NCBI RefSeq assembly: GCF_026151205.1
Contig: NC_087075.1
Span: forward strand, 3,944,359-4,004,358
DNA: 60,000 bases
Source of the DNA: Bolinopsis microptera
Taxonomy: Eukaryota; Ctenophora; Tentaculata; Lobata; Bolinopsidae
Direction: 5' to 3'
The position numbers and the translations under genes are program-made. The notes under the pieces were generated by a model that saw only the letters and a program-made list of their open reading frames with translations, searched no databases and was not told the DNA's origin. Position 1 is the stretch's first letter; each line of letters opens with the position of its first letter. Of the stretch, positions 4,858 to 59,021 are shown in pieces.

Positions 4858-5634
4858 ATGTTGTCTGGAGATCTGTCTATTGGTGAGCTGTTGCAACTTA
4901 GAGAAACTGTAGGCAAGTTTTATTTAGCTAAATTTTTTTAAAAACATTTATGTTTGCCTAATGCCTATATTTCATTTTTACACTCTTGTGGTACTACATA
5001 CAAGATAATTAATATCAGACATAATTCAGGAACGAAGAAGTTTGAAGCTTTGACCACTCCAAAGCAAGAACCTAATGACGCAGAACCCACCTCTATTCCT
5101 TCCAAACCTGATCCAAAAAGTATAGACTATAAACGATCTAACAAACGTGCTCCTCGTGAAATGACCTCAAAACGAAAAGTTTCTGTTATCAGAGAGCAAA
5201 CTACTGGTAAACGGACAACACGCGATCCCCGTTTTGACGATCTTTCTGGAACGTTCGATGATAATGTTTTCCAGGATTCATATGGGTTTATAAAAGACAT
5301 CAGATCAGAAGAGAAGACTAAACTTCAGGGTGAACTAAAAAAATGTAAGGATCCTAGGAAGAGAGATAAATTTATCAGACTTATCAACCAAATGAACACG
5401 TCAGAACAAGCCAATCAGATTAAAACAGAGCGACAAAAACTGAAAGTTGAGAGCAGGAAAAAAGCTATGGGTAATGTTAAGGATGGTAAGAATCCTTACT
5501 TTGCTAAAAAGAGCGAGCTCAGGAAGTCTGAGTTGAAGAATAAGTTTGAGCAGCTCAAAAAAGAAGGCAAAGTTGAAAAGTATTTGGCCAAACGTAGGAA
5601 GCATAATCTGCAAAAAGACAAGAAGTCTTTGTAA
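4858..5634 (+). CDS. RRP36: Ribosomal RNA processing protein 36 homolog
   Basis: Two exons, 4858-4912 and 5030-5634, join to a 219-residue protein. RRP36 is a nucleolar factor of the 90S pre-ribosome needed for early cleavages of pre-rRNA. Exon 1 gives LSIGELLQLRETVG, matching the family's 'MSFEELLELQxQVGTK' start. Exon 2 gives the diagnostic DPRFDDLSGTFDD and the basic C-terminus NPYFAKKSELRKSELKNKF followed by a Lys/Arg-rich tail. The splice is a GC-AG intron: exon 1 ends GTAG and the intron begins GCAAGT, the usual consensus for GC donors, with acceptor CATAATTCAG. This join yields VGTKKFEAL, as expected for the family. A frame opening at 4954 inside the intron is an alternative start, but it would lose the conserved N-terminus. 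Confidence 0.88.
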
Positions 5635-8900: not shown

Positions 8901-11900
8901 CATATGTTACCATAACAACCACCAGTGTACACGGCTACCATATGTTACCATAACAACCACCAGTGTACACGGCTACCATATGTTACCATAACAACCACCA
9001 GTGTACACGGCTACCATATGTTACCATAACAACCACCAGTGTACACGGCTACCATATGTTACCATAACAACCACCAGTGTACACGGCTACCATATGTTAC
9101 CATAACAACCACCAGTGTACACGGCTACCATATGTTACCATAACAACCACCAGTGTACACGGCTACCATATGTTACCATAACAACCACCAGTGTACACGG
9201 CTACCATATGTTACCATAACAACCACCAGTGTACACGGCTACCATATGTTACCATAACAACCACCAGTGTACACGGCTACCATATGTTACCATAACAACC
9301 ACCAGTGTACACGGCTACCATATGTTACCATAACAACCACCAGTGTACACGGCTACCATATGTTACCATAACAACCACCAGTGTACACGGCTACCATATG
9401 TTACCATAACAACCACCAGTGTACACGGCCACCATATGTTACCATAACAACCACCAGTGTACACGGCTACCATATGTTACCATAACAACCACCAGTGTAC
9501 ACGGCTACCATATGTTACCATAACAACCACCAGTGTACACGGCTACCATATGTTACCATAACAACCACCAGTGTACACGGCTACCATATGTTACCATAAC
9601 AACCACCAGTGTACACGGCTACCATATGTTACCATAACAACCACCAGTGTACACGGCTACCATATGTTACCATAACAACCACCAGTGTACACGGCTACCA
9701 TATGTTACCATAACAACCACCAGTGTACACGGCTACCATATGTTACCATAACAACCACCAGTGTACACGGCCACCATATGTTACCATAACAACCACCAGT
9801 GTACACGGCTACCATATGTTACCATAACAACCACCAGTGTACACGGCTACCATATGTTACCATAACAACCACCAGTGTACACGGCTACCATATGTTACCA
9901 TAACAACCACCAGTGTACACGGCTACCATATGTTACCATAACAACCACCAGTGTACACGGCTACCATATGTTACCATAACAACCACCAGTGTACACGGCT
10001 ACCATATGTTACCATAACAACCACCAGTGTACACGGCTACCATATGTTACCATAACAACCACCAGTGTACACGGCTACCATATGTTACCATAACAACCAC
10101 CAGTGTACACGGCTACCATATGTTACCATAACAACCACCAGTGTACACGGCTACCATATGTTACCATAACAACCACCAGTGTACACGGCCACCATATGTT
10201 ACCATAACAACCACCAGTGTACACGGCCACCATATGTTACCATAACAACCACCAGTGTACACGGCTACCATATGTTACCATAACAACCACCAGTGTACAC
10301 GGCTACCATATGTTACCATAACAACCACCAGTGTACACGGCTACCATATGTTACCATAACAACCACCAGTGTACACGGCTACCATATGTTACCATAACAA
10401 CCACCAGTGTACACGGCTACCATATGTTACCATAACAACCACCAGTGTACACGGCTACCATATGTTACCATAACAACCACCAGTGTACACGGCCACCATA
10501 TGTTACCATAACAACCACCAGTGTACACGGCCACCATATGTTACCATAACAACCACCAGTGTACACGGCTACCATATGTTACCATAACAACCACCAGTGT
10601 ACACGGCTACCATATGTTACCATAACAACCACCAGTGTACACGGCTACCATATGTTACCATAACAACCACCAGTGTACACGGCTACCATATGTTACCATA
10701 ACAACCACCAGTGTACACGGCTACCATGTGTTACCATAACAACCACCAGTGTACACGGCTACCATATGTTACCATAACAACCACCAGTGTACACGGCTAC
10801 CATATGTTACCATAACAACCACCAGTGTACACGGCTACCATATGTTACCATAACAACCACCAGTGTACACGGCTACCATATGTTACCATAACAACCACCA
10901 GTGTACACGGCTACCATATGTTACCATAACAACCACCAGTGTACACGGCTACCATATGTTACCATAACAACCACCAATGTACACGGCTACCATATGTTAC
11001 CATAACAACCACCAGTGTACACGGCCACCCTATGTTACCATAACAACCACCAGTGTACACGGCTACCATATGTTACCATAACAACCACCAGTGTACACGG
11101 CTACCATATGTCTTCTCCATGGCCACCAGGAGGAACAAGTTATGGTTTCAGATAAACAAAATATTATCCTGACAAATATATGCTAGTCTAGTTGTCCACA
11201 TTTGTAAAAAAAATCAATGTAGCCTGATTAATTACATTGCTGGGAGCTGTAGCCTGGAGGCAAGCTCTGTTTTTTTAATACGTAGATTAATTCACGGATT
11301 TCGCTGGCGTAATCACTGTCATGTGTTATGGTAACTATAGCTCAACTTCTTTGGAATCTTCTCTAACAAAATAAAATTACATTTTGATATCAAATATATT
11401 TAACCATATTTTTCAACACAATATGCATAATACAAAAGTAAAAATTAATAAAGTTCTCAATTTAATCTTCTGGCTCCGAAAGCAAATTTTCCTCTGAATT
11501 CTTATAGAAGACTCTCAGATTCAAAAGACTGAATATTCGTTCTCCTGTTCAATGTTCCGAGTCAGCCTACAACTCTTCGGCTGAAGCTTCTTTCGATTAT
11601 GCTGGAGTCTGCAAAGTTATTATATTTAAACCTCCAACATGGTCCAGTGAGAATTCGAGCCATAGTTGCAAACAATTATAGTAATATTCATTATTGTATA
11701 TAACTTAAATTATAGTAAACTAGAAAGCCCGTGGTAACAGGGACGAAGCTAGTAGTATTCTTTGAAAGAAAGTTTTAATCGCATTAAAAAATATCCATCC
11801 CAACCGAAGATACAGCCGATTTAAATATAAAACACTTTAAACACAACGTAATTACCACAAAACCGATCAAAATGACGTTAAAACAATCTTTGCACGTGCA

Positions 11901-14900
11901 TGTGTACTTAAAACACCGTTGCTATGGAACGTTTTGGTTGTTACCTAAATTCCTATTTTTCATCTAATGTGCACGTGGGCGGTCGTACATACAGACAACA
12001 AAAACAATTCTCTGAATTATAGTAGAGATAACTAATTGTATTAATAACATTAGTGTAATAAGCTATGATGATATCATGCCAACCTGTAAGAACTTGTCCT
12101 GCTCCGGGTCAGCAACTGCTTTCTCTTCTAGTTTCCGTGAGGGGCTCTTGTCCAGGAATGCAAAACTAATGCATCCCACCACACAAGTAACTGTTAGTAT
12201 ACCTGTAAATTATAGTGGTATACTTTTGTAGTATTGTAGTATTGTATACCTGTTAATTATAGTGGTATACTTTTGTAGTATTGTAGTATTGTATACCTGT
12301 AAATTATAGTGGTATACTTTTGTAGTATAATTGTAGTATTGTATACCTGTTAATTATAGTGGTATACTTTTGTAGTATTGTAGTATTGTATACCTGTAAA
12401 TTATAGTGGTATACTTTTGTCGTATTGTAGTATTGTATACCTGTAAATTATAGTGGTATACTTTTGTAGTATTGTAGTATTGTATACCTGTAAATTATAG
12501 TGGTATACTTTTGTAGTATTGTAGTATTGTATGTACCTGTAAATTATAGTGGTATACTTTTGTAGTATAATTGTAGTATTGTATACCTGTTAATTATAGT
12601 GGTATACTTTTGTAGTATTGTAGTATTGTATACCTGTAAATTATAGTGGTATACTTTTGTCGTATTGTAGTATTGTATACCTGTAAATTATAGTGGTATA
12701 CTTTTGTAGTATTGTAGTATTGTATACCTGTAAATTATAGTGGTATACTTTTGTAGTATTGTAGTATTGTATGTACCTGTAAATTATAGTGGTATACTTT
12801 TGTAGTATTGTAGTATTGTATACCTGTTAATTATAGTGGTATACTTTTGTAGTATTGTAGTATTGTATACCTGTAAATTATAGTGGTATACTTTTGTAGT
12901 ATTGTAGTATTGTATGTACCTGTAAATTATAGTGGTATACTTTTGTAGTATTGTAGTATTGTATACCTGTAAATTATAGTGGTATACTTTTGTAGTATTG
13001 TAGTATTGTATACCTGTAAATTATAGTGGTATACTTTTGTAGTATTGTAGTATTGTATACCTGTAAATTATAGTGGTATACTTTTGTAGTATTGTAGTAT
13101 TGTATACCTGTAAATTATAGTGGTATACTTTTGTCGTATTGTAGTATTGTATACCTGTAAATTATAGTGGTATACTTTTGTAGTATTGTAGTATTGTATA
13201 CCTGTAAATTATAATGGTAAACTTTTGTAGTATTGTAGGGGAAGCCAAGGGGTATTTTGGGGTATTATTGGGAATGCCTGAATGAATTTTGGAAATCCCC
13301 CATAATAAAGTACCCCAAAATGCCCCTTGGCTTCCCCCTATTGTAGTATTGTATACCTAAACAATACACTTGTCTTTATCCTGATAAAATTAATTGATAA
13401 TATAAAACATTCAGTTATAATATCACTTCTCTTTGCCCTCCTCCTAAAGTCTTATCATAATCAATTAATCTCCTTCACCCCCGGCCCCCACCCCCGGCCC
13501 CCACCCCCGGCCCCCACTCCACCTCTACCACATTTTGAGAGTATACCTAGTTGATAAGGCACCCCCGGCCCCACCCCCGGCCCCCACTCCACCTCTACCA
13601 CATATTGAGAGTATACCTAGTTGATAAGGCAGGATGAGATGACCACAGTAGACGAAGGCAGCTGCTCCAACCGAACTCTGTACAAACTTGAACATAGCAA
13701 ACGCTGGAGCTGGATTACTCTCGAATATTGTACCTGGTTTAATATTATGTTGAGATTTGGGAATAAGACTCTGATATATTGTAATTTAGAGGATTCTGTT
13801 ATTGTGCTTTAATATTGGGTTCAAATGTAGATATACATATCAAAGTCTGATATATAAAAGAAACAATTTCAATACATTCTCCCCCTCATCTCTCAAGTCT
13901 CCTCTCTCTTAGGCTCACTTACCAACTGCAGCGTAGATAGAAACATTGAAACCCCCGTCCCCCAGTCCCAGCAACACTCCCAGCCCCAGAGCTAGGTAAA
14001 TGCTGCTAGGTATGATGGGTGTCTCTTCTGCTACTGCTGCCTGGACACAGGTCATATTAGCAATCCAATAGCCCATTACCTCCTAGTAGTATTTATTGAG
14101 ATACATATCCTTATCTTGATAAATAGGTGTTGCTTGGTTTCCCAGTGTATAATACTGGAACTTACTGTAGTAGTGGCAGCATCAGATGGGAAGCTGATAA
14201 AACAGAGAACGAAGAGAAAAATGTTGATTATAGTACTAGCTATAATAACTCCATGTCTCCCTATCTTGTTAGTTAACCGACCCCAGATAAACCTGGAGAG
14301 ATTACATTACACCAGTAGTACTAATAAAGATTACATTACACCAGTAGTACTAATAAAGATTACATTACTATTACCTAATATATTCAACTATATAATGAGA
14401 TTACATTACAGAACCGATGAAAGTTTCTATAGACCTTTTATTTGGCCAATTTTTAACCCCATCCCCCCTCCGTAATCAGTTTCACACATAGCTATTGTGT
14501 CAAAATTACACTAGCGTACTCATTTGGAAACCTCCTCCGCCTCCCCCCTCAGCTAAATTATATATATATTATCTACCCTGCTGCTATTTCCCCCACTCCA
14601 GTACTGATTCCTCCCAAGGCGAGGTAACTCCTGTTTGGGAACACGTTCCCAACCGAGGTGATGAAGACGGAGCTCCAGTAGTTCAGTGACACGCCTGAGG
14701 AGGAGTTATCAGTCCATTAATAGCATTAATTAATTAATTAATTAGTCAATTAATTAATTAATTAGTCAATTAATAGCAGTCTTTCAGTGGGAATGAGAGG
14801 AGAAGTAGCTGTAGTTATCAATTCATTTGTTGGGGAACCATTTATTTACTTCTTTATTCCGAGTTTTTAATATCATTTCTTGATGGTCAGTATATGTAGG

Positions 14901-17900
14901 ATTATTCAATAGAGAGTTGACATAACATAGTTACAACAGTAGAGTTACAGTGCAGCAATGGTTCACATCACTTGTCTCTAATTTAAAGCGGTTGACATAT
15001 CTTATATCTCTAATTTAAAGACCCTTGGTTCCCCACCTGTGAAAATGATGGGAAGGTACAGTAAACACATCTCCCTAGTTTTACAGAACCTAGCAGCATC
15101 TACAATCGGTTGCAGTACTGACTGTGGTTTTCCTTCAGTTTTCTCCTCGATAGCGTTCTCTCTTTCTACGTCGTTGCTAACACATGTTTTTCTAGTAAAG
15201 ATCAGGAAGAATGGGACAATGGACGCGTCTTCTTCTGATTTCTGAGGAGACATGAACTTCATTAAATCTCAGTAAATACTAGATTACATTAACTCTTATT
15301 TAGATACTGGACTATTCAACAACAGAATGATCATAACAAATAAACAGTTATGCTTAGTAAAATAGTGCTACAAAGGTGTTACATGAAGTAAAGGTGTTAC
15401 ATAAAGGTGTTACATGAAGTAAAGGTGTTACATACTGTAGGTTCATCAGGGACAGGCGCTAGCAGAAGGAAGGTGAACATGCCCAGAGTGCACAGTACTC
15501 CTAGCACTTGGTATATCACGTATCTTTTAGTGTCACTGATCTTCGCGGAGTCCCCTGAATAGTGGATCGTTAAAAAACCCTTTATATTCCTGAAGAGTAG
15601 AGAGTTAAAACCTCTTCAGTCCTAAATCCTGATCTGGTTCTGGAGCAAGAAAACTCAACCAGACTATTATCAATGTGCTCTTGTGAGATGTGTTAACCTA
15701 GGTAAAAGTACAGGAAGACGAGCAATGTGCTCTTGTGAGATGTGTTAACCTAGGTAAAAGTAGAGGAAGACGAGCAATGTGCTCTTGTGAGATGTGTTAA
15801 CCTAGGTAAAAGTACAGGAAGACGAGCAATGTGCTCTTGTGAGATGTGTTAACCTAGGTAAAAGTAGAGAAAGACGTTTCCCAGAAGCATGCTGCTGTTG
15901 AACCACGACCAGAATATACCAGTGTTCTTTGCTTTAGTGTCTCCAGGGGAGTTCTTTGAAATCACCTGAAACATTCTAATAGTTTACCGGCCACACTGTA
16001 TAGTTTATGAATCATTTTATAATTTATAGGTGTTTGTATTTGATAGAAATAATCTCAATATCACTTCTTAGCTTTAGGGGAGGCTTTGTATCTTTGTAAG
16101 TGACGTGTTGAAAGTTCATTATTTTTACTAGTAGCTGTAAGTTACCATATATTAAAGGCTTTGTCAGTGAACATGTAAGTTGCCCTAGATAATACAAATG
16201 TACAAATGTACAGATTTACTAATGTACAGATGTACAGATGTACAGATGTACAGATGCACAAACCTCCCCACAAGCAGTCCAGAGCACAGCACCACCAAAA
16301 CCAAGCAGTGCCGAGAGAGTAAACACACTCCACATGTAAGGTTCTATCATGCAGTATATAAACCCAGTGTAGGGAATTGAAGACAGGAATAAGGACAGTT
16401 CTGGTCCTGAGGAAGTATTGTGAAGTTTATAATTTTTAGGGTTTTCTAATCTCTGGCGATATATTCTCTGAAGCATCGCTCGGTTGTGGAAATAGTTTAA
16501 ACTACAACAGTACCTACCTAGTTTCTTGACAACAGCAGGAGAGAACCAGTTAGCCAGTCCCAAACAGGCGTATATAATAGACAGACTGTAGAACCCTGTA
16601 ACATAAAGCAATAATAGACAGACTGTAGAACCCTGTAACATAAAGCAATAATAGACAGACTGTAGAACCCTGTAACATAAAGCAATAATAGACAGACTGT
16701 AGAACCCTGTAACATAAAGCAATAATAGACAGACTGTAGAACACTGTAAAATAAAGCAATAATAGACAGACTGTAGAACCCTGTAACATAAAGCAATAAT
16801 AGACAGACTGTAGAACACTGTAAAAGAAAGCAATAATAGACAGACTGTAGAACCCTGTAAAATAAAGCAATAATAGACAGACTGTAGAACACTGTAGAAG
16901 AAAGCAATAATAGACAGACTGTAGAACACTGTAAAAGAAAGCAATAATAGACAGACTGTAGAACCCTGTAAAATAAAGCAATAATAGACAGACTGTAGAA
17001 CCCTGTAAAATAAAGCAATTATAGACAGACTGTAGAACCCTGTAAAATAAAGCAATAATAGACAGACTGTAGAACCCTGTAAAATAAAGCAATAATAGAC
17101 AGACTGTAGAACACTGTAAAATAAAGCAATAATAGACAGACTGTAGAACCCTGTAAAATAAAGCAATAATAGACAGACTGTAGAACCCTGTAAAATAAAG
17201 CAATAATAGACAGACTGTAGAACCCTGTAAAATAAAGCAATAATAGACAGACTGTAGAACCCTGTAAAATAAAGCAATAATAGACAGACTGTAGAACCCT
17301 GTAAAATAAAGCAATAATAGACAGACTGTAGAACCCTGTAAAATAAAGCAATAATAGACAGACTGTAGAACCCTGTAAAATAAAGCAATAATAGACAGAC
17401 TGTAGAACACTGTAAAATAAAGCAATAATAGACAGACTGTAGAACCCTGTAAAATAAAGCAATAATAGACAGACTGTAGAACCCTGTAAAAGAAAGCAAT
17501 GTCAGCTCACATTATCCTTTATAATTAACAGTTTCAAAGACTCACTCGAAGTCTAATTAATGAAGGATCTGTAAACAACAACTCTACAAATGTTCCTGTT
17601 AATTCTAGTATTCTAGTATTCAATATAATGCTAAATTGCTAGTAAAGCAACATGTTCCTAAGATCTCACCAGTCTTGCTGTCAATGCCGTTGCTGTTGAA
17701 GTCTTTGAGCACAATGGCGGATATAAAGCCAGCTGTGATGAACGCTGAGAAGACGAACATAAAGCCGATACCCAGAATGTGGATATTGTACAGGTTCCTG
17801 TTCATCTTGTCCGAGTATGTACTATGTACTATGTACTAGAGAGATTTGTGTCAAGAAATGAATCAGCGAACGCTACGTATCTAAGCTGTCACCTAGCTGA

Positions 17901-20900
17901 GAGTATATAGACTAAGTAATCTTCCGGCAAAATTCATGATGGCCGGAATATATACCAGAGAGGCTTAACAGTTGCTGGAATCTATTATTGCACTTATTGT
18001 AAGGTGTTATAGAAAGAATTATGTGGGGTTGGAATGATCAAAGCAACGTAAACGATGGTAAATACTGTACATTATATGATAGGGTGCGCGTGGCAACTAG
18101 ACTAGAGTGACGTCACGGCCCGCAGTTTATATCAGCCAATAGGAGCGCGGCGTGGTATTTCGTGGTTCTGTAGTCTGTACACTTTCACCGGACATAAATG
18201 CGAATATTTGTAAGTCGATCCTAAGCTTCCTTCAATCTTCATCCTTTAACAAAACATATTTGGCGTTTTTACCGTTTTTACCAAAATTATTACGTAAAAC
18301 AAAATTAATAAAGGTTCCCAGAAACAATTGAGCCACTCTAAATGAGCCCTCTAGAAAGGGTCCTAGTTTAATGATAACTCATTTGTTCCAGTCAGTTGTA
18401 ACAACGGATTATTAGTGTGAGGCTGAATATCCGCTCCACGCCGTCTCTTGATTAGCTTATCAGGGAAGAAGAGTACCGACAGTAATAACACTTTCTGCAA
18501 CTTTGCACCATTTTTAATTGGGGAACTGCACTGTTGGTTATAAAATTTAATCAATCTCAGTCTGGATGATTAGTTGGTCCCCTGATAAAGATAATTTATC
18601 CTGATTATGACTTGTTTTTTTGCTGACTTAAAGCGTCCAGAATCCGAGCCAAAATTTATTATCCTAATTATAATCCACAACAAATTGGAGCCAATAAATT
18701 GAGTTTGATTTGTATGTAGGGGATATTTTTTAGGGGAGTGCCCCCTTAATACCCACACTTCTGAAAGTAGCCGGTGTACCAGGGTCCTCTCAGACCACAC
18801 CAAGTCCTAAATAGCATTTCTCAGCAAGAATAGCCAAGCATCAGCAACTCTTATGTTTCTCCCATGAAGTAACAACCCCACTTACCCTCGTAAATTTCAG
18901 GAGTTTGTTGATGTCCGATCTCTGTAAACACTACGAGTACAACGAGTTTCTAATGGGTCAACTAATGGAGATAATGCCCTATGGAGAACTAATTGATCTA
19001 CTAGGTAAGTTCATGACAAATAGCAAGTGTAAAATGGGCAGTGTTAAGTTCACTTAAGTTGATCATATTCGGATTATTGTAACGGTTGCTATAGTAACAC
19101 CATGATAACCTTGGTAACATCACGGTAACACCATGATAACCACGGTAACATCACGGTAACGCCATGATAACCATGGTAACATCACGGTAACACCATGATA
19201 ACCACGGTAACATCACGGTAATATCACGGTAACACCATGATAACCATGGTAACATCACTGTAATATCACGGTAACACCACGGTAACACCATGATAACCAC
19301 GGTAACATCACGGTAACACCATGATAACCACGGTAATATCACGGTAACACCATGATAACCACGGTAACATCACGGTAATATCACGGTAACACCATGATAA
19401 CCACGGTAATATCACGGTAACACCATGATAACCATGGTAACATCACTGTAATATCACGGTAACACCACGGTAACACCATGATAACCACGGTAACATCACG
19501 GTAACTGTTCAGACGCCCAAGAGACACGCAGACCGGTGACTATCAGAGCAAACTCTCTGAAGACAAGACGGAGAGACCTGGCCCAGACTCTTATTAACAG
19601 AGGAGTTAACCTGGACCCCATCGGAAAATGGAGCAAGGTACGTGGTACACTTATTAAATTACGCGTTATTATGTGTACGTGTTATTCATCTTCAACATTT
19701 TAAACTTATCAATTAAATAAAACTCGCCGGTTTAATAACGGACCCTGTTATCAGTTAATCACACCGCCCTGAACTCTGATAAGGGGTCAACATGCTTTTG
19801 TGAAACGTGAAATATTGTGGTTGTGCATGTGCCCTATAATGGGGGGCGGGGGGGGGGGGGGTGCACTACACCATGCCCTACGATACCTTGCTCGACTGTG
19901 ATAGGATCAGTTATGAATATTATCACCTAGAGTAACTCTGTTTAGTTGTGTCAAGTGAAGGTTAAATTTGATAGACAAGGTAAGTTTTGTTAAATAACAT
20001 ATAAAAACCTGATATATAATACCAAAATCAGGTGGGTCTAGTAGTGTACAACACATCGGTACCCCTCGGAGCCACTCCGGAGTACCTAGCTGGACACTAT
20101 ATGTTACAGGGAGCTAGTTCTTTTATACCTGTCATGGCTCTACATCCTAAACCCGGTACTTTTACTTATTAACTTATTAACTTATTATTAACTTATTATT
20201 AACTCATATAAATTGATGCATTCTTGTGTAAATTTGTATTGATCCCGTTTGATGGGACAAGGAAAAATGCTCTTATCAGGAAAGGAATTACTCGAGCATT
20301 TTTCCTTGTCGCATCAAACGGGATCAATACAAATTTACACAAGAATACATTGCAACCATGCGACTCATAATACTCCAATCCGAATTTTATAAGAATTGAC
20401 TGATTAATTAATTAACTAATTGACTAATTAACTAATTACCAGGTGAGAGAGTGTTGGACATGTGTGCGGCCCCTGGTGGCAAGAGTGCTTATCTAGCTGC
20501 ACTGATGAAAAACACAGGAATGTTGCTGTCTAATGACGCCAGTAAGGACCGAACTAAAGCTCTTACTGCTAACTTACACAGACTCGGTGAGAATTTAATG
20601 TGTTTTTATCAATGGAACGTGTTTTCATGTACGATGACATTAATCATATAAATAGGTGGACAACTTGGTCCTGGAGGATTATTTGTTCATTAATTTGATT
20701 GTTTTCTAAAGAAACGCAGATTTGTTTGTAAACTAAATGTTGACTAACATCACAGGAGTGAACAATGCGATAGTATGTAACTATGACGGTTTAGCGTTCC
20801 CCAAAGTTATGGGAAACTTTGACAGAGTATTATTAGATGCGCCTTGTAGTGGCAGTGGAGTGGTAAGTTAACTTTTATATAGAGGTTAGATGGAGGTTAG

Positions 20901-26693: not shown

Positions 26694-27485
26694 CTAAGCT
26701 CCGGCAGATTTAAAAAGTAGATGGTTACTATCAAGGGTGTTCATACCCCCAAACCGTTCAAGGGTTTTCAATTGGGTCTGGTAGAACCCCTCTCTAGCTT
26801 CCATAGCCTTTTCTTTGTCTGCTTTACTAATATTAGGCTCAAATACTAAAGCGTCTACTATAATGACAGAAAGGTGCTTACTAAGTGAGGAATTATAGCA
26901 GGCTATGGTACTAAAATCTAAATCATGATCAATATCTAAAAAATGGTTAACTAATTTACAACTTCTTATACCTTTCTTTATGTGACTCTTATGGTTAGAG
27001 AATCTCTTAGGGAGATTTGAGGTAGTATAACCGACATACGACTGTTTACAAGTCTTACACTCCATTAAATAAATGAGGTTATAACTCTGACAAGATATAT
27101 ACTTAGTTATAGGGAAAACTTGTTTAGAATGGTGACTACTAAAATTGGAACAGGGGGACAGGAAATTTTGCTTACAAACATAACATTTACCACAAGCATG
27201 GCACCCTGGGTCGACAGCCCCGGGAACCGCCCTTAGACTTTCGGAGTCTGGTTCCTGGATCTGGCTTGCAGTTGTTTCTCTCTCATTATCACAGTTTAAA
27301 GTTCCACTGGCACGGTACTTATTGTGTACAAGCATGCCACCGATAGTTTGATTCTTTCGATGACTCACGAATACACTGTCCGCACGTACCAGCTTCTTCA
27401 GGGCCGGATCAAGGTTGAGAAGGTGCTTATACTTATGGATAATGCCCCCCATGTTGGGAAGTGCTGGATTTTGATCCATCACCAT
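26694..27485 (-). pseudogene. Penelope-like element, C-terminal GIY-YIG endonuclease fragment
   Basis: A 263-residue open frame on the - strand. The N-terminal part (HKYKHLLNLDPALKKLV, then DSVFVSHRKNQTIGGMLV) corresponds to the linker after the RT of Penelope-like retroelements. The zinc-finger-like CGKCYVCKQN follows, then the GIY-YIG domain: NLIYLMECKTCKQSYVGYT and RFSNHKSHIKKG carry the Y, the YVGYT and the Arg/His of that nuclease family. These elements use the domain to nick the target. The RT domain is absent upstream, so this is a 5'-truncated copy, the usual fate of such insertions. The frame itself is intact, so the insertion may be fairly young. Confidence 0.85.
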
Positions 27486-29067
27486 GGGTATTACTATTAT
27501 ATGTATGTATAGACGCTTTGGCAGTCAATTGTAGCCTACATTTAAGTGTCCGTAGACTCAAAAGTATAAATGATACAGTCATCTCGAACCACAGGTTTTA
27601 AAGATAATCGTTTAAGCTTTAGTTTAGATTGTATTGAAAAATAATTTAAGGTCGTCATCATCACTTGATGACGTCATCAAATTAAGTGTTTTTAAAACTT
27701 GATTTTTGACAAAGTAACAACTTTTCAAATCGATTTTACACCACTAAGAAGTAATTTTATTCAAAATCTGAGGACATTATCATCTTAGATAATTGTTCAA
27801 GCATTCCGAAAATCTACCGGAAAATTTTCCTACCTTGCTCCTTCATAAAGATATTTGCTATTGAAGTTAGCGCTTTTTTGAAGAATAATTTTATAAAAAC
27901 ACAAAAGTTGTGAATTAGTATTCTCTGGTGTTGGGCCATCCCTTGGATTGTGGAGCTCAATTTTGCTTCCTAAAGGTCTAAATTGTGTTATAGGCTAGTT
28001 TTAAAGTTGAAAATCGAAAAGTTGCACACGTGGGGTCACGCCCAAATTGATTTAAAATTGCTAAAATCACTGAAAATTGTTATTTTCATGATTTTTATCA
28101 ACTTTGGAGTCCCGTTGTGATCCAAGTTCTTTTTGAAATCTTCTGAAACTTTGCATGCTTATCAAACTATATATAAAATACCACTATGCAAAAATTTACG
28201 GTGATTCATTGTTGTATGCGCACGGAACGTTCGCTCAAAGTTTGCACGTGCGAAAGGTGATAATTGTGCTCCTGTATGATTTCGTTTAGATTCTACTTTT
28301 CCACAACAGTAGAACAATATATTATATGAATTTGATACCAACTTGAAAGAATTTAAATTGACATATTCAGTCAATGATCGACAGATATGCTACTTCAAAC
28401 ACAAGGAAATGTTTTAAGGCAATTTTAAAGCGTTGAAATTACATCCTTATAATTATTAACTTACAACTTATTAATTAAGTTATCAGTTGACCCTGACATT
28501 GAACAAAAAGAGATGATCGTTTACCAAAACTCATAATAAATAATTATGGGTATAGTTATATCTGTTACTGGAAACTGGTGTAAACACTAATTGATAACCG
28601 AAACTAGAATGTCGAGTTCACGCTTTTACAATTTTCAAACTCGAAATACGTCTACTAAGTGACTTAAGATAAGGTTGACGAAAACTGTGACGTTATGGTT
28701 CCTCACAACTATGACGTAAATTGATTAGTAACAAGTTAAATTCCATTGCTTATCGCCTTACAAAATACCCCCGACAATTCTCGCCTACGTCAGAGATAAC
28801 CTGTTAGTGTTGAATTCTCATGGGTATCTTTGTTAGACATGTAAAATGAAACCTATATGGACCGTGGTGTTAATTTTTTAGTACAAATTACGTAACAGCA
28901 AGAGTACTGATAAACCATATATGGTGGCGATTCAAGAACAAACTTTTAATTTTATAATGTCGTCATATAATTACTGATGATGTGTGACGCGATTGTGACG
29001 CAAAGTGACGCAAAATGTTGGGAGTTTCCTGGCAGTTAATTAAGCTCTACCAGATTGTAGCATGAAG
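27486..29067. other. Non-coding region between the Penelope fragment and the Helitron promoter
   Basis: AT-rich with no gene visible. It includes the 16-base perfect palindrome TTGATGACGTCATCAA at 27665-27680 and three closely spaced GTGACGC motifs at 28984-29008. The Helitron 5' terminus probably lies in this stretch but I could not locate it. Confidence 0.5.
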
Positions 29068-48735: not shown

Positions 48736-48777
48736 AATTTTGTACGGGTAACATGTTAAAAGAATGATTTAACAGGA

Positions 48778-50788
48778 ATGTTAAGTGAATGTCTTTTCAC
48801 TGGGTTCTTCGTCACTGTTGGCTGCATGACCAACATGACTAGTCTGCCGAACACTGCAAACATGACCAAATGGCGATGCTGCCACAAAAAGTGTGAAACA
48901 TTCCCAAACGTATTCGAATCCTGTGACCAAGAGGTAAATACCTGTAGAAAATGGAATGGAAATGCATTTCCAGAGTGTATCAAAGGGTATGCTGATAATG
49001 TTGATGCTGGTTGCACATATTGCAACAGCTCCTTAGATTGTACAACTGACGCCCGCACTGGTCAGGCGAGTTGTGGTGCTGCTGTAAAGAACACTTCGAA
49101 TGACAAACATGATTCCTCAGATTTAAGTGAAGTACAGATAGGCGGAATAGTTGTTGGTGCTGTTTTCGGGGTTGTCATTATAAGCGTTTTAGGCGTCGCT
49201 TGCTTCAGTAAGGGAGCTCCAGGGAGAACTGGCCACAGAGGATCAATCAGTACACCGTTAGTTGAGGCGGATGAGGCTGCTCGCGAGGAGGAAGCAGCAT
49301 CAGATACTTGCTACCCTCCACACCAGTATGCTAGTGATCAGATGTATGGAGGGTACGCGCCTTCCCAACCCCCACCTGTTCAGTACCCTCTTGCTCAATA
49401 TCCTGGTGCTCAGTATTCACCTGGTGCACAATATCCACCTGGTGCACAATATCCACCTGGTGCACAATATCCACCTGGTGCACAATATCCACCTGGTACA
49501 CAGTATCCACCTGGTGCTCAGTACCCACCTGGTGCTCAGTACCCACCTGGTGTACAGTACCCACCTGGTGCACAATATCCTGGAGCTCAGCACCTAGCTG
49601 GTGCTCAATATCCTGGTGCACAATATCCACCCCCAGCCCACCCAACTGTAGAAATTGAAAATCCTACTGCAACTTCTCCACCATCAGCCGGGTCTTATCC
49701 AGCAGCCACCTTTGTTCCTACGGAGGAGACACTTATTCAGTTGAGAAATGAGATGGAAGAAGAAACTACCAAAGCAATGGAGGAAAGGCGCAAACTGGAG
49801 GAGGAGCGTAATATGCAGGAAAAGCGCAAAATGGAGGAGGAGACACTTATTCAGTTGAGAAATGAGATGGAAGAAGAAACTACCAAAGCAATGGAGGAAA
49901 GGTGCAAACTGGAGGAGGAGCGTGAAATGGAGGAAAAGCGCAAAATGGAGGAGGAGCGTAAAATGGAGGAAAAGCGCAGAATAGAAGAAAAGCGCAAAAT
50001 GGAGGAGGAGACACTTATTCAGTTGAGAAATGAGATGGAAGAAGAAACTACCAAAGCAATGGAGGAAAGGCGCAAACTGGAGGAGGAGCGTGAAATGGAG
50101 GAAAAGCGCAGAATAGAAGAAAAGCGCAAAATGGAGGAGGAGACACTTATTCAGTTGAGAAATGAGATGGAAGAAGAAACTACCAAAGCAATGGAGGAAA
50201 GGTGCAAACTGGAGGAGGAGCGTAAAATGCAGGAAAAGCGCAAAATGGAGGAGGAGCGTAAAATGCAGGAAAAGCGCAAAATGGAGGAAAAGCGCAGAAT
50301 AGAAGAAAAGCGCAAACTGGAGGAGGAGCGTAAAATGGAGGAAAAGCGCAGAATAGAAGAAAAGCGCAAACTGGAGGAGGAGCGTAAAATGCAGGAAAAG
50401 CGCAAAATGGAGGAAAAGCGCAGAATAGAAGAAAAGCGCAAACTGGAGGAGGAGCGTAAAATGGAGGAAAAGCGCAGAATAGAAGAAAAGCGCAAACTGG
50501 AGGAGGAGCGTAAAATGCAGGAAAAGCGCAAAATGGAGGAGGAGCGTAAAATGGAGGAAAAGCGCAAAATGGAGGAAAAGCGCAAACTGGAGGAGGAGCG
50601 TAAAATGGAGGAAAAGCGCAAAATGGAGGAGGAGCGTAAAATGGAGGAAAAGCGCAAAATGGAGGAAAAGCGCAAACTGGAGGAGGAGCGTAAAATGGAG
50701 GAAAAGCGCAAAATGGAGGAAAAGCGCAACACGAAAGAAAGAAAAAATAAGGAAAAAAATGCTCCAGCAAAATCGAAACCAGTTGAAG
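48778..50788 (+). CDS. Cys-rich single-pass membrane protein with PPGAQY repeats and long coiled coil (paralog 1)
   Basis: Family not recognised. The frame runs to a stop at 50820, but a donor (GTTGAAG then GTGAGG) at 50788 is conserved in position and phase with paralog 2, so a further exon is likely. Residues 1-17 are a weak signal peptide. Residues 33-100 form a Cys-rich ectodomain (CCHKKC, CDQEVNTC, GCTYCNSSLDC) with several NxS/T sites. Residues 121-143 form a transmembrane helix (IGGIVVGAVFGVVII). A cytoplasmic tail follows with about a dozen PPGAQY units, the segment HPTVEIENPT and, from about residue 320, a Glu/Lys/Arg coiled coil. That coil is built from 8-residue units like EERKMEEK and three to four larger ETLIQLRNEMEEE blocks. 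The coiled coil is missing in paralog 2. A membrane-anchored scaffold is a guess. Confidence 0.75.
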
Positions 50789-51029
50789 GTGAGGTCAAAA
50801 ATAGATTAAGAATAATTTAAAATGTGTAACATAACAGGTATAGATGATTTGTTTGGTTAAAATTAAATTGATTCATTTTGTGTTTTACACCACTTGGTGT
50901 CAAAGACAAAATGATATCATCTGATAAATATAACTTCACAGTTTGCATTGTTTAATTGTGGTGTTGAACTTGAATGAACTATTTATATTCCATAATGAAG
51001 CTAAATTGTTAAGAATACACTAATAATTA

Positions 51030-51680: not shown

Positions 51681-53754
51681 TATTATTGTTGTATATCAGA
51701 TACATCTCATTCATGATATCTAGATATGCTACTCGTTGTTGCCTCTAAATCATGTCTTATCACTGCAACGCACTCGCAGGTCATCTGTTGTGAACAACAC
51801 CAAGCCTACTTCTTTTTTATCATTGTGTGCGTATTGCGTAAGGTACTTAGCTGCGATGTAATTTGATATCTTTAAATTTAATTTATAAATTAAAGTATAT
51901 AAATCTCACTATATAAATATCACTATTCAAATTTATGCTATGTTGGTTATATTTGTCATGTTTATTGGCCACTCTCCAATGTCCGGTTATTAAACAGACT
52001 CAGCATCTACCGTAACAATATGGGTATCACCTCATCATAACAGGTTAACTATCAGTCACAGGGGGACTATAGTGCAAAGAAACGATCAGTGTTTCCCACG
52101 TCGGGCCAGCTCTCATTGATCTTTAATTATTCTGCGGCTTGGGAGATTTGCTGTCAGTTACTTTAGAATATTTAGGTTTATCATTACATTGTTTTTTCGT
52201 CTATAATTGTTTTGTATACATTTCAAATACTACAGTACAGTCAAACCTTTATATACCGGGTACCTCGATATACCACAGGGTACCACAATATACTACCGGG
52301 AACCTCGATATACCGGGTACCTCGATATAACGAGTACCTCGATATACCAGGTACCTCAATAAACCGGGTACCTCGATATACCGGGTGCCTCAATATACCG
52401 GGTGCCTCAATATACCGGATACCTCGATATACCGGGTACCTCAATATATATTGGGTACCTCGATATACCGGGTACCTCAATATACCGGGTACCTCAATAT
52501 ACCGAATACCTCGATATACCAGGTACCTCGATATACCGGGTACCTCAATATACCAGGTACCTCGATATACCGAGTACCTCGATATACCAGGTACCTCAAT
52601 ATACCGAATACCTCGATATACCAGGTACCTCGATATACCAGGTACCTCGATATACCGGGTGCCTCAATATACCGGGTACCTCGATATACCGGGTACCTCA
52701 ATATACCGAATACCTCGATATACCAGGTACCTCAATATACCGGGTACCTCGATATACCGGGTACCTCGATATACCGGGTACCTCAATATACCGGGTACCT
52801 CGATATACAAGGTACCTCGATATACCGGGTACCTCGATATACCAGGTACCTCGATATACCGGGTACCTCAATTTATACCGGGTACCTCAATATACCGGGT
52901 ATAATCAGGGATCTGAGAATATTCCCGTATACACGTCTTCCGCCCCGAGGTTTGAGACCTGCAACGGCTCAATAGACCCCTCAGAAACAAATTAGGCTTG
53001 GGTAGACTTTCTGAATATGGGGCAGTTTTGGGCAATTGACCACACCCTTTTTTGGCGCTTTCGCGATATCTAAACCCACATATCTCAACTTCTGATCGGA
53101 GAAAAGAGATCAACTTGGGTATGATAATGGTCATAATCAACATATTTAGAGAGGTAGAACATGATTTCAAAGTCCTCACACTTAAGTTTGATGAGTATAA
53201 TATGAATACAACCTTTTGCGGTCTCGCGAGTAACAATTATCACACTTATTTCAGGATATCTCAGCTTCTAATTGGAGCTAAATAAAACGCTCTTATTGGG
53301 TATTGAAATGGTCAGAATCATCACATTGAGTGGGGTAGAGAGTGGTTTTAAAATCTACAGACTTCAGGTTTTTGAGTTATTAGGTCAAACCCTTTTTTTT
53401 GAGGTTGCAAGTGATTCTTCTTGGCCGCGAATGCAAAAGAAAAATCACTAATCTACTTCCACCTAAGGCGACAGAACTAGAAGCATCTGGAGACATTTTT
53501 TCATTTATTTTCCAGTGTTCACTACTTCGGTCACTTGGCATGTCGTCAAGATGTATAGTTCACATTACTTTCCTATAACTCTCTTTTATTAAACATACAC
53601 ACTTAACTCATGGGGTATCTTAACTCATTGTGTCTGTCTTTTGTTTGTTTGTGACCTATATATTTATTGTGTGACCTATATATTCAAGAAAATTAAAATT
53701 GTTTCATTCATATGATTAATCAATACCTTAGGAAATTTAGGAATTTACTCTTTG

Positions 53755-56774: not shown

Positions 56775-57610
56775 TTAATGCCAAGATGAGCGTTTAGCTC
56801 CAATTAGAAGCTGAGATATCCTGAAATAAGTGTGATAATTGTTACTCGCGAGACCGCAAAAGGGTGTGGTCATATAACTCATCAAACTTAAGTGTGAGGA
56901 CTTTGAAACCATGTTCTACCTCTCTAAATATGTTGATTATGACCAATTTCATACCCAAGTTGATCTCTTTTCTCCAATCAGAGGTTGAGATATGTGGGTT
57001 TAGATATCGCAAAAGCGCCAAAAAAGGGCGTGGTCAATTGCCCAAAACTGCCCTATATTCAGAAAGTCTACCCAAGCCAAATTTGTTTCTGAGGGGTCCA
57101 TTGAGCCGTTCCAGGTCTCAAACCTCGGGGCGGAAGACGTGTCTACGGGAATATTCTCAGATCCTTGATATACCGGGTACCTCGATATACCGGGTACCTA
57201 GATATACCAGGTACCTCAATATACCAGGTACCTCGATATACCGGGTACCTCGATATACCGGGTACCTCAATATACCGGGTGCATCAATATACCGGGTACC
57301 TCGATATACCACGTACCTCAATATACCAGGTACCTCGATATACCACGTACCTCAATATACTGGGTACCTCAATATACCGGGTACCTCGATATACCACGTA
57401 CCTCAATATACTGGGTACCTCGATATACCACGTACCTCAATATACCGGGTACCTCAATATACTGGGTACCTCGATATACCACGTACCTCGACCGGGCCTC
57501 TTCTTTCCCCCAAACGTGCAGTTAATTAGCTCGTGTTGTGCAATAATATAGATGTTTGACTGTATATTAAAAAATATTTCAGTAACTATTATTAATACTA
57601 AAACTACAAG

Positions 57611-59021
57611 ATGTTAAGTGGATGTATTTTTGTGCACTTCATTACTGTTGGGTGGTGCATGACCAACATGCAGAACAGCGCAAACACGAACAGCATAACC
57701 AATATGCCGAACACTGCAAACACGACCAAATATCGATGCTGCCACAAAATGTGTGAAACACTTCCGAACGTATTCGACCCCTGTGATCAAGAGTTAAATA
57801 CCTGTAGAAAATGGGACGCCGCAATTCCCGGATGCATCCCAAAGATCAGGGCTGATAATGTTGATGCTGGTTGCATATATTGCAACAGCTCCTTAGATTG
57901 CACAACTGACGCCCGCACTGGTCAGGCGAGTTGTGGTGCTGCTGATGATGACTATTCTTCAGAATCTTCACACTCATTCAGTCCCCTTGAAAAAGTTGGT
58001 GTGTTTTTGCTTGCTTGTCTCATTGCCGTTGTTTGGTGTTTATCAAAGCTTAACCCTTTTGGCGGCTTCGAAATACGTATTCCTTGTCGAATTTGTTGTT
58101 GTAATTATTGTTGTTGTAAAATCTGTTGTCCTGAAGGAACTGATGAAGGAGGATCGATCAGTACACCCTTAGTTGAGGCGGATGAGGCTGCCTACCCTCC
58201 AGGATTGCACCCATCTCAGTATGCTAATGATCAGTACGCGCCTACCCAACCCCCACGTGCTATCTACCTACCACCTGGCGGGTATACTGTACAGTATCCT
58301 GTTCAGTACCCTCTTGCTCAATATCCTGGTGCTCAGTACCCACCTGGTGCACAATATCCACCTGGTGCACAATATCCACCTGGTGCACAATATCCACCCC
58401 CAGCCCACCCAACTGTAGAAATTGAATATCCTACTGTAACCTCTCCACCATCAGCCGGGTCTTATCCAGCAGCCACCGTTGTTCCTACGGAGGAGACGCT
58501 TATTCACTTGGGAAATGAGATGGAAGAACAAAATGCCACAGCAATTAAGGAACAAAATGCCCCCGCAAATCCAGTCGAAGGTATAAGGTCAAAAAGAAAT
58601 TAGAAAGGTGATAATATAGATAACTTTTCGCAGTTCTTTTATAGCAGTACTGTTGCCCAAATTTTCTGAATGTAAGATATTTTGTTAGTGGCTATCGGAA
58701 CCCATCGTAGTTTCTAGATTTAACAACTACAAAATGTACTACATCGCTTTTTCACTTCGTTTTGTATATGTTTTTTGTGTACTTAAAAAAGGGGTTTCTA
58801 GGATCATAAATGTTCATCTTCCATACAAAACGCATACGTGCTAATTGCTACATTATGCTATTTTATAGAAAAATGCTACTTTAAAGAAAATAAATAACTA
58901 GATTAATTCTACAACTTATTCAATTTCAGCTCCACACCCTCTCTCTCCTGGAGCCACAGTCAGGCTAACCTCCAAAGCTCACGGGAAAAATCTGAGGATC
59001 AAAAAGGAGGGTGGTATTGAC
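57611..59021 (+). CDS. Cys-rich single-pass membrane protein with PPGAQY repeats (paralog 2), with a spliced C-terminal exon
   Basis: Exon 57611-58580 joins by phase 1 to 58930-59021, and a donor GTGAGT at 59022 suggests more exons beyond. The ectodomain repeats paralog 1 (RCCHKMCETLPNVF, AGCIYCNSSLDCTTDARTG). The transmembrane segment is VGVFLLACLIAVVWCLSKL, followed by a Cys-dense juxtamembrane stretch (CRICCCNYCCCKICC) absent from paralog 1, possibly palmitoylated. Only about four PPGAQY units and no coiled-coil expansion are present (EETLIHLGNEMEEQN is the remaining trace). The second exon encodes LSPGATVRLTSKAHGKNLRI, reminiscent of the start of a fascin/FRG1-type beta-trefoil; that reading is tentative. 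Tandem duplicate of the gene at 48778. Confidence 0.7.

Follow-up and report, generated by a model that had tools for sequence, protein, structure and literature searches.

In the ctenophore Bolinopsis microptera, the acceptor of intron 1 of an UNC93/MFSD11-like gene lies within a minisatellite whose 37-bp unit spans the border between intron 1 and exon 2, and the acceptor is thereby present in 25 near-identical tandem copies. The gene is located on the minus strand of the window, i.e. the 60,000-nucleotide stretch of DNA analysed here, and the positions of its relevant features are collected in the table. The copy next to exon 2 is supported by homology as the border of that exon. We consider it probable that the array represents a tolerated duplication of the boundary, in which the exon-proximal copy is used and the remainder has grown as extra intron. 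The anatomy of the array, the border by homology, the coding outcome of each copy and the recurrence of similar arrays at other splice sites are direct observations, and they are presented below together with the evidence that speaks for other readings.

Table. Features of the UNC93/MFSD11-like gene and of its repeat arrays, in positions of the window.
Feature	Position	Strand	Basis
UNC93/MFSD11-like coding region, 11 exons, 470 codons, TAG in exon 11	12063..17805	-	
Exon 1	17670..17805	-	
CTGAC at -19 of copy 1, not part of the unit; no other acceptor copy has a consensus branch-point-like motif near it	17501..17505	-	
Minisatellite (37-bp x 25) covering the acceptor between intron 1 and exon 2	16574..17500	-	TRF and acceptor-site positions
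AG of copy 1 (most upstream acceptor), 888 nt (3 x 296) before the last	17484..17485	-	
Exon 2, with its first 21-22 bases belonging to the last repeat copy; the AG of its acceptor occupies 16596-16597	16518..16595	-	
8-bp x 8.5 repeats, starting 3 bases into intron 3	16193..16260	-	TRF
52-bp x 4.0 array covering the donor of intron 4, with 23 bases of exon 4	15671..15876	-	TRF
31-bp repeats, starting one base into intron 5; abut the donor GT without duplicating the donor	15356..15434	-	TRF
29-bp x 2.4 repeats that stop 6 bases short of exon 8	14299..14368	-	TRF
70-bp x 2.0 array covering the donor of intron 10, with 15 bases of exon 10	13489..13631	-	TRF
Intron 10, mostly repeats	12203..13616	-	
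47-bp x 21.9 array covering the acceptor of intron 10, with 6 bases of exon 11	12197..13238	-	TRF

TRF describes the array at intron 1 with a period of 37, 25.1 copies and 97% matches. Sites of the form ACAG^(G/T)GTTCTACAG, where ^ marks the splice border, occur 25 times on the minus strand and are spaced by 37 bp in all 24 intervals with no indel, in agreement with the roughly 25 tandem acceptor copies claimed in an earlier note on this DNA. Each unit consists of 16 intron bases, TTGCTTTATTTTACAG, followed by 21 bases of exon 2, GGTTCTACAGTCTGTCTATTA, and so does combine a splice acceptor with the start of exon 2, as the same note had proposed. Across 24 units, 16 single-base variants were counted. 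The first unit extends the intron end GAGCTGACATTGCTTTCTTTTACAG, and the last one runs on into exon 2 (...CTATTATATACGCCTG); intron end before the first unit and exon 2 after the last is the arrangement expected from tandem duplication across the border. With this spacing the array is distinct from tandem acceptors of the NAGNAG type, in which two acceptors lie 3 nt apart. When a dimer of the 37-mer was searched against the genome (264.65 Mb, 232 contigs; best candidates scored and very common words skipped), the matches were confined to its own array. The unit is accordingly known from one locus of one assembly, and the possibility that the 37-mer is a dispersed element was rejected as it matched its own locus only.

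The eleven exons of the gene are separated by GT-AG introns and join without a frame break to encode a 464-residue product, with the terminal TAG six codons further on in exon 11. The product matches the Pfam families UNC-93 (E 8.8e-73) and MFS_1 (2e-18), and we presume that MFSD11 is an appropriate name for it. An NCBIfam scan of the protein gave a sub-threshold match to an MFS-type model only, PDB sequences gave no match at E values up to 0.01, megablast of the gene against plasmid records gave no match, and an Rfam scan of positions 10000-20000 gave nothing above the gathering scores.

Three close paralogs (pA, pB and pC) are arranged in tandem on a different contig, C1, the first two with 73% and 64.5% identity to the window gene, respectively. 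Their intron positions were derived from a custom spliced protein-to-genome alignment, according to which intron 1 of pA and pB has the codon and phase of intron 1 in the window gene. In these two paralogs intron 1 measures 225 and 362 nt and ends in a single acceptor (cag^GGTTTT and cag^GGTTCT); the 7 arrays that TRF lists for the region all lie outside intron 1 of pA and pB. The corresponding intron of pC lies 11 codons earlier, while introns 2-9 of pA are found at the places of the window gene (one codon-shifted). Across the joint of exons 1 and 2 the protein is collinear with all three paralogs and contains no insert. Since pA and pB lack the array and are interrupted by intron 1 at an identical codon and phase, each with a single acceptor, the exon-adjacent copy would be the one that yields the conserved protein. 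It stands where pA and pB have their acceptor, and homology thus supports the claim that exon 2 begins at the last copy; the same homology speaks against a start of exon 2 further downstream. Pairwise dN/dS between the window gene and pA is 0.09 (with dS saturated at 2.0). The arrays are younger than the paralogs, and constraint in the past is therefore no proof of present function.

To see what each of the other acceptors would encode, the 24 upstream copies were read through into exon 2. Eight stay open and add n x 37 residues, whereas 16 run into a stop, 12 of them within exon 2 and 4 already in the array. The distance of 888 nt between the first and the last acceptor places copy 1 among the eight. 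The idea that copies out of frame would avoid an immediate stop fails for these 16 once exon 2 is read, and the associated claim of an array free of stops in every frame is correct for two of the three sense frames; the third has a TAA from one copy with CTATAATTG. Units free of stops were obtained in 7.7% of 20,000 base shuffles of the 37-bp unit, and the stop-freeness of the unit is only mildly unusual. The variants are non-synonymous in 14 of 16 cases in the frame of copy 1 and in 15 and 16 cases in the other two frames. With nearly all of them non-synonymous in each frame, the array shows no trace of coding constraint. As to a possible coding VNTR, the array does keep an open frame, but most variants in that frame change the residue.

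Besides the acceptor of intron 1, the gene has boundary-spanning arrays at three more splice sites, namely the donor of intron 4 and both the donor and the acceptor of intron 10. All three extra downstream donors of intron 4 give a stop, the one extra donor of intron 10 causes a frame shift that leads to a stop, and from 23 of 23 upstream AG^GTA(T/C)A sites in intron 10, mostly copies of the 47-bp unit, a stop is reached before in-frame exon 11. For introns 4 and 10 an intact product is thus obtained from the exon-proximal copy only. Intron 10 is absent from all three close paralogs and has AGGTATACT at both ends, the donor side and the acceptor side with exon 11 being alike (AG^GTATACT). It is a possible intron gain, but could not be accepted as a proven one because the tree has no usable root, and the paralogs may instead have lost the intron. 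As a dispersed element, the intron-4 sequence was rejected, as it matched its own locus only. The 47-mer had weak matches (74-80%) at three other places, at which TRF shows 8-bp simple repeats (ACTACAAT, ACTACTAC, CTTGTAGT). A foldback element of about 100 bp (AGGGGGAAGCCAAGGGGCATTTTGGGG... plus its complement) occupies positions 13239-13338 on the minus strand, in the first unit of the 47-bp array of intron 10, and foldback-like stretches exist at dozens of other places (at least 64 matches among the best 40 of 59 candidates, some of them both strands of one place).

Similar arrays were found at two other loci by means of a genome pattern scan. Among the matches listed, which covered contig C1 and part of C2, there were at least 13 separate arrays, and five of 13 listed arrays, picked by eye for unit length, were opened. 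A BROMI-like gene (L040 3900-5700, C2:7804719-7806551, minus strand) contains 31 AG-bearing acceptor copies, usually 45 bp apart. All 30 upstream acceptors lead to a stop, one of them after 443 open codons, and the product made via the last copy matches Pfam BROMI with an E value of 2.6e-16 (123 residues on 120 profile positions). Unlike in the 37-bp array, the motif CTNAY is present at -16 or -17 in 31 of 31 AG-bearing copies; with this motif in every copy, the BROMI-like gene is no proof that an array without branch points of its own splices to the last copy. In a gephyrin-like gene (L042 1167-1627, C2:1633666-1634126, plus strand) a 35-bp unit is repeated 13.3 times over a donor, and the 572-nt intron is largely made up of this array, which repeats the exon end and the donor. 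When the first donor alone was translated, the joint matched gephyrin chains with no gap at the joint. In the window gene, the BROMI-like gene and the gephyrin-like gene, the exon-adjacent copy is, as judged from translation, the one predicted to yield the conserved protein. No splice border was seen at the opened arrays L041 and L043. The latter (L043 520-2349, C1:12229019-12230848) is a 48-bp array that corresponds to a 16-residue repeat (VQFARYFCKFPHIDPK) in an open frame of 610 codons. L044 (C1:1995945-1996241) is a 41-bp array beside an ORF on the plus strand (YWWANIWYINNLVPW), and the two peptides flanking it had no match in Pfam.

We suggest that the array at intron 1 started as a tandem duplication of a 37-bp segment, composed of the last 16 bases of intron 1 and the first 21 of exon 2, and that further expansion then brought it to 25 copies. 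As the copy at the exon passes unaltered into the remainder of exon 2, exon-proximal splicing would still give the normal protein, and the array would be tolerated and could grow as intron. The other 24 acceptors would then be by-products, mostly silent, the use of which would mostly result in a frame shift and a stop. A plausible way for the exon-proximal copy to win is exon definition, in which the nearest acceptor would pair across the 78-nt exon with its donor; such pairing would also account for donor arrays and acceptor arrays both still working. The splice choice, the manner in which the array expanded and its neutrality are all points that we infer from the genomic sequence.

The main evidence against tolerated duplication with use of the exon-proximal copy comes from the local splice signals. 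Acceptor matrix scores over the 25 copies range from 6.55 to 10.36, with 9.72 for 12 of the 25, 9.47 for copy 1 and 7.71 for the last copy; the latter score is shared by copies 20 and 22-25 (last included), which have a G in the tract. The motif CTGAC at copy 1 scores 7.37 as a branch point, above the 95% quantile (6.95) of 113 acceptors, and the 37-bp unit contains no consensus branch point, its best score of 0.77 falling between the 5% and 25% quantiles (0.07 and 2.58), all branch-point scores being based on hand-set weights. As a reference, CTNAC in the last 60 intron bases had its A 12-23 nt before the exon in 19 of 33 cases among 115 introns of eleven genes (123 minus 8 that were unsure); the scoring of 113 acceptors omits the same 8 and, for the window gene, introns 1 and 10 as well. 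If splicing took place at copy 1, the resulting intron would measure 186 nt, not far from the typical length (median 257). With scores this variable and a consensus branch point at copy 1 only, the upstream acceptors cannot be regarded as some 24 equivalent decoys, as had been assumed, and on local signals alone copy 1 should win.

One alternative, which appears unlikely, is that the acceptors are not silent decoys at all: with one branch point before 25 acceptors, copy 1 or every third copy might be used, the length of the array might set a ladder of in-frame hydrophobic inserts of n x 37 residues in a transporter-like protein, and boundary-spanning minisatellites in ctenophores might continually supply new splice forms, and introns of the type of intron 10. 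The narrower version, that the first AG behind the branch point (copy 1) is used and the 888-nt array is exonic, so that eight in-frame repeats of 37 residues each, mostly hydrophobic, would separate the first membrane helix from the second, strikes us as rather improbable. The exclusive branch point, the acceptor score of 9.47 compared to 7.71 for the last copy and the usual size of the resulting intron agree with use of copy 1, but none of the three paralogs has an insert at this site, and the upstream copies cannot give an intact protein in intron 10 or in the BROMI-like gene, from both of which intron 1 differs in that 8 of its 24 upstream copies stay open. The array is a multiple of three and open and would add an in-frame insert of 296 residues; a multiple of three, however, has a chance of 1 in 3, and many intermediate copy numbers would presumably be frame-shifted. 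Likewise, the absence of any indel in 24 of 24 spacings would be in line with a coding array, but 14 of the 16 variants alter a residue and no frame looks constrained.

We regard it as quite improbable that the splice choice is spread over many copies, giving a ladder of isoforms with 0, 37, 74 ... extra residues together with many non-productive transcripts, perhaps tuned by the length of the array. There are 25 near-identical acceptors to choose from, and eight of the 24 upstream ones are in frame and open, but the remaining 16 end in a stop, the units lack a consensus branch point, and the amphioxus cases are, in the available part of the source, reported as regularly spliced (PMC3087553). 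An assembly or copy-number artefact in the array length or splice-site content, or a decaying gene, is highly improbable: the array rests on one assembly and the introns of the gene are rich in arrays, but eleven exons with GT-AG introns keep an unbroken frame to the terminal stop, the variants are unevenly distributed along the array, and like arrays occur at other loci.

Whether arrays are enriched at splice borders was assessed in several ways. Three spaced copies of TTTNCAGG gave 1504 matches in the genome compared to 213 for the reversed pattern (overlaps included), a difference that was rejected as evidence of an excess, since single arrays give many overlapping matches and CAGG may be a commoner word. 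In seven myosin loci, 12 of 55 TRF>=50 arrays lay at most 15 bp from a border versus 6.97 expected (P 0.018), and in the three paralogs 4 of 4 versus 1.7 expected (P 0.013), after 3 introns had been dropped from this proximity test. Arrays truly spanning a border numbered 4 in the myosin loci, where about 4.65 were expected (one of the four, at C5 intron 13, was judged a wrong intron, and another, at C3a intron 7, ambiguous). A genome-wide excess of arrays at splice borders is not demonstrated by these counts. In the window gene itself, 7 of 8 TRF>=50 arrays lie over a border or at most 6 bp from it versus 1.98 expected (P 5e-5, in a gene selected for its array). In a more stringent test, for which the 8 unsure introns among 123 had been removed, tandem duplication over the border was observed at 4 of the 20 splice sites in the window gene versus 1 of 210 in ten other genes (Fisher P 2e-4, a value that flatters the window gene, as it was chosen for its array), the single case being the donor of intron 7 of pC. 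In the ten comparison genes, i.e. the three paralogs and the seven myosin loci, 72 of 4160 random intron points pass the same test, and the 1 in 210 therefore indicates no general preference for borders. The introns of the window gene are rich in repeats (90 of 400 random interior points pass the duplication test), so that its four spanning arrays may reflect no more than general repeat density.

The kind of structure described here is already known. The human 6-16/IFI6 minisatellite reportedly has, like the window array, a splice site in its units, in this case a donor and not an acceptor, and the title of the report is said to state that several sites are provided. In amphioxus genes, minisatellites across an exon-intron border have been termed mirages (PMC3087553, PMC3902484); in the available part of the former they are said not to disturb regular splicing, as judged by RT-PCR, and the gene BflGb6 is given with 6 and 3 units of 150-160 bp in two haplotypes (PMC3087553); PGBD5 and troponin C are added as further cases (PMC3902484). 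Like these mirages, the ctenophore arrays consist of tandem units of minisatellite size (37 bp x 25.1, 97% in the window array) that span an acceptor or a donor, with both 5' and 3' borders affected, and spliced alignment together with the paralog introns places the unit across the boundary of a real gene. Unlike the amphioxus cases, as far as the consulted text describes them, they occur in a ctenophore, comprise up to 25-31 acceptor copies and affect four splice sites in one gene.

In human genes of segmental duplications, variable internal tandem repeats occur at exon-intron boundaries and affect splicing (PMC2812944, available part). They resemble the present case as boundary minisatellites in a duplicated gene family; they were found by comparison of paralogs with transcripts, and have on average 30-bp units x 4. 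The Rogers model, as cited in the available part of PMC3087553, explains intron gain by tandem duplication of AG/GT segments. Intron 10, with its absence from 3 of 3 paralogs and AGGTATACT at its two ends, is like that model, and intron 1 is unlike it: being common to pA and pB, intron 1 is neither newly gained nor an introner. Searches by titles and abstract openings, with most subscription papers outside their reach, found among the papers listed none on boundary-spanning arrays in ctenophores. To the extent of these searches, the novel aspects are the ctenophore host, the number of copies and the concentration of such arrays in a single gene. A glutamate receptor ORF of this genome has ML032222a iGluR, a protein of Mnemiopsis leidyi, as its best match among solved sequences (E 9.1e-121), with 70% identity over 136 residues; this probably points to a ctenophore that is a relative of Mnemiopsis and distinct from it.

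The window contains several other features. An RRP36 rRNA biogenesis gene is present at 4942-5634 on the plus strand as one open frame (E 4.3e-46), and an ORF for a GIY-YIG endonuclease (E 2e-7) at 26694-27524 on the minus strand, perhaps the tail of a Penelope-like element. Between 33148 and 42847 on the plus strand, a 51-bp x 21.5 array corresponds to a 17-residue coding repeat (SRYHSSPGGRSALNKAQ) in ORFs that are followed downstream by a Rep-like fragment (matches to Pfam REP_ORF2-G2P at 4.9e-7 and, below the cut-off, to Helitron_like_N at 9e-4) and by a PIF1-like helicase. Coding minisatellites with PPGAQY repeats are present in two ORFs that are related to each other (48760-50820 and 57602-58603, plus strand); the first, which gave no match in Pfam, has long EEKRKMEEE repeats as well. 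Two distinct arrays (52251-52901 and 57163-57491), with about 4 kb between them, are built from one and the same 17-bp unit, ATATACCGGGTACCTCG.

Minisatellites at splice borders, described in lancelets and, in a different form, in human duplicated genes, are hereby suggested for a ctenophore, where as many as 31 near-identical acceptors follow one another. Arrays of this type provide a natural experiment on whether the spliceosome takes the first acceptor after the branch point or the one nearest to the exon. Intron 1, with its branch point outside the unit and a frame that is open from copy 1, and the BROMI-like gene, with CTNAY in 31 of 31 copies and a stop from every upstream acceptor, offer contrasting tests of this choice.
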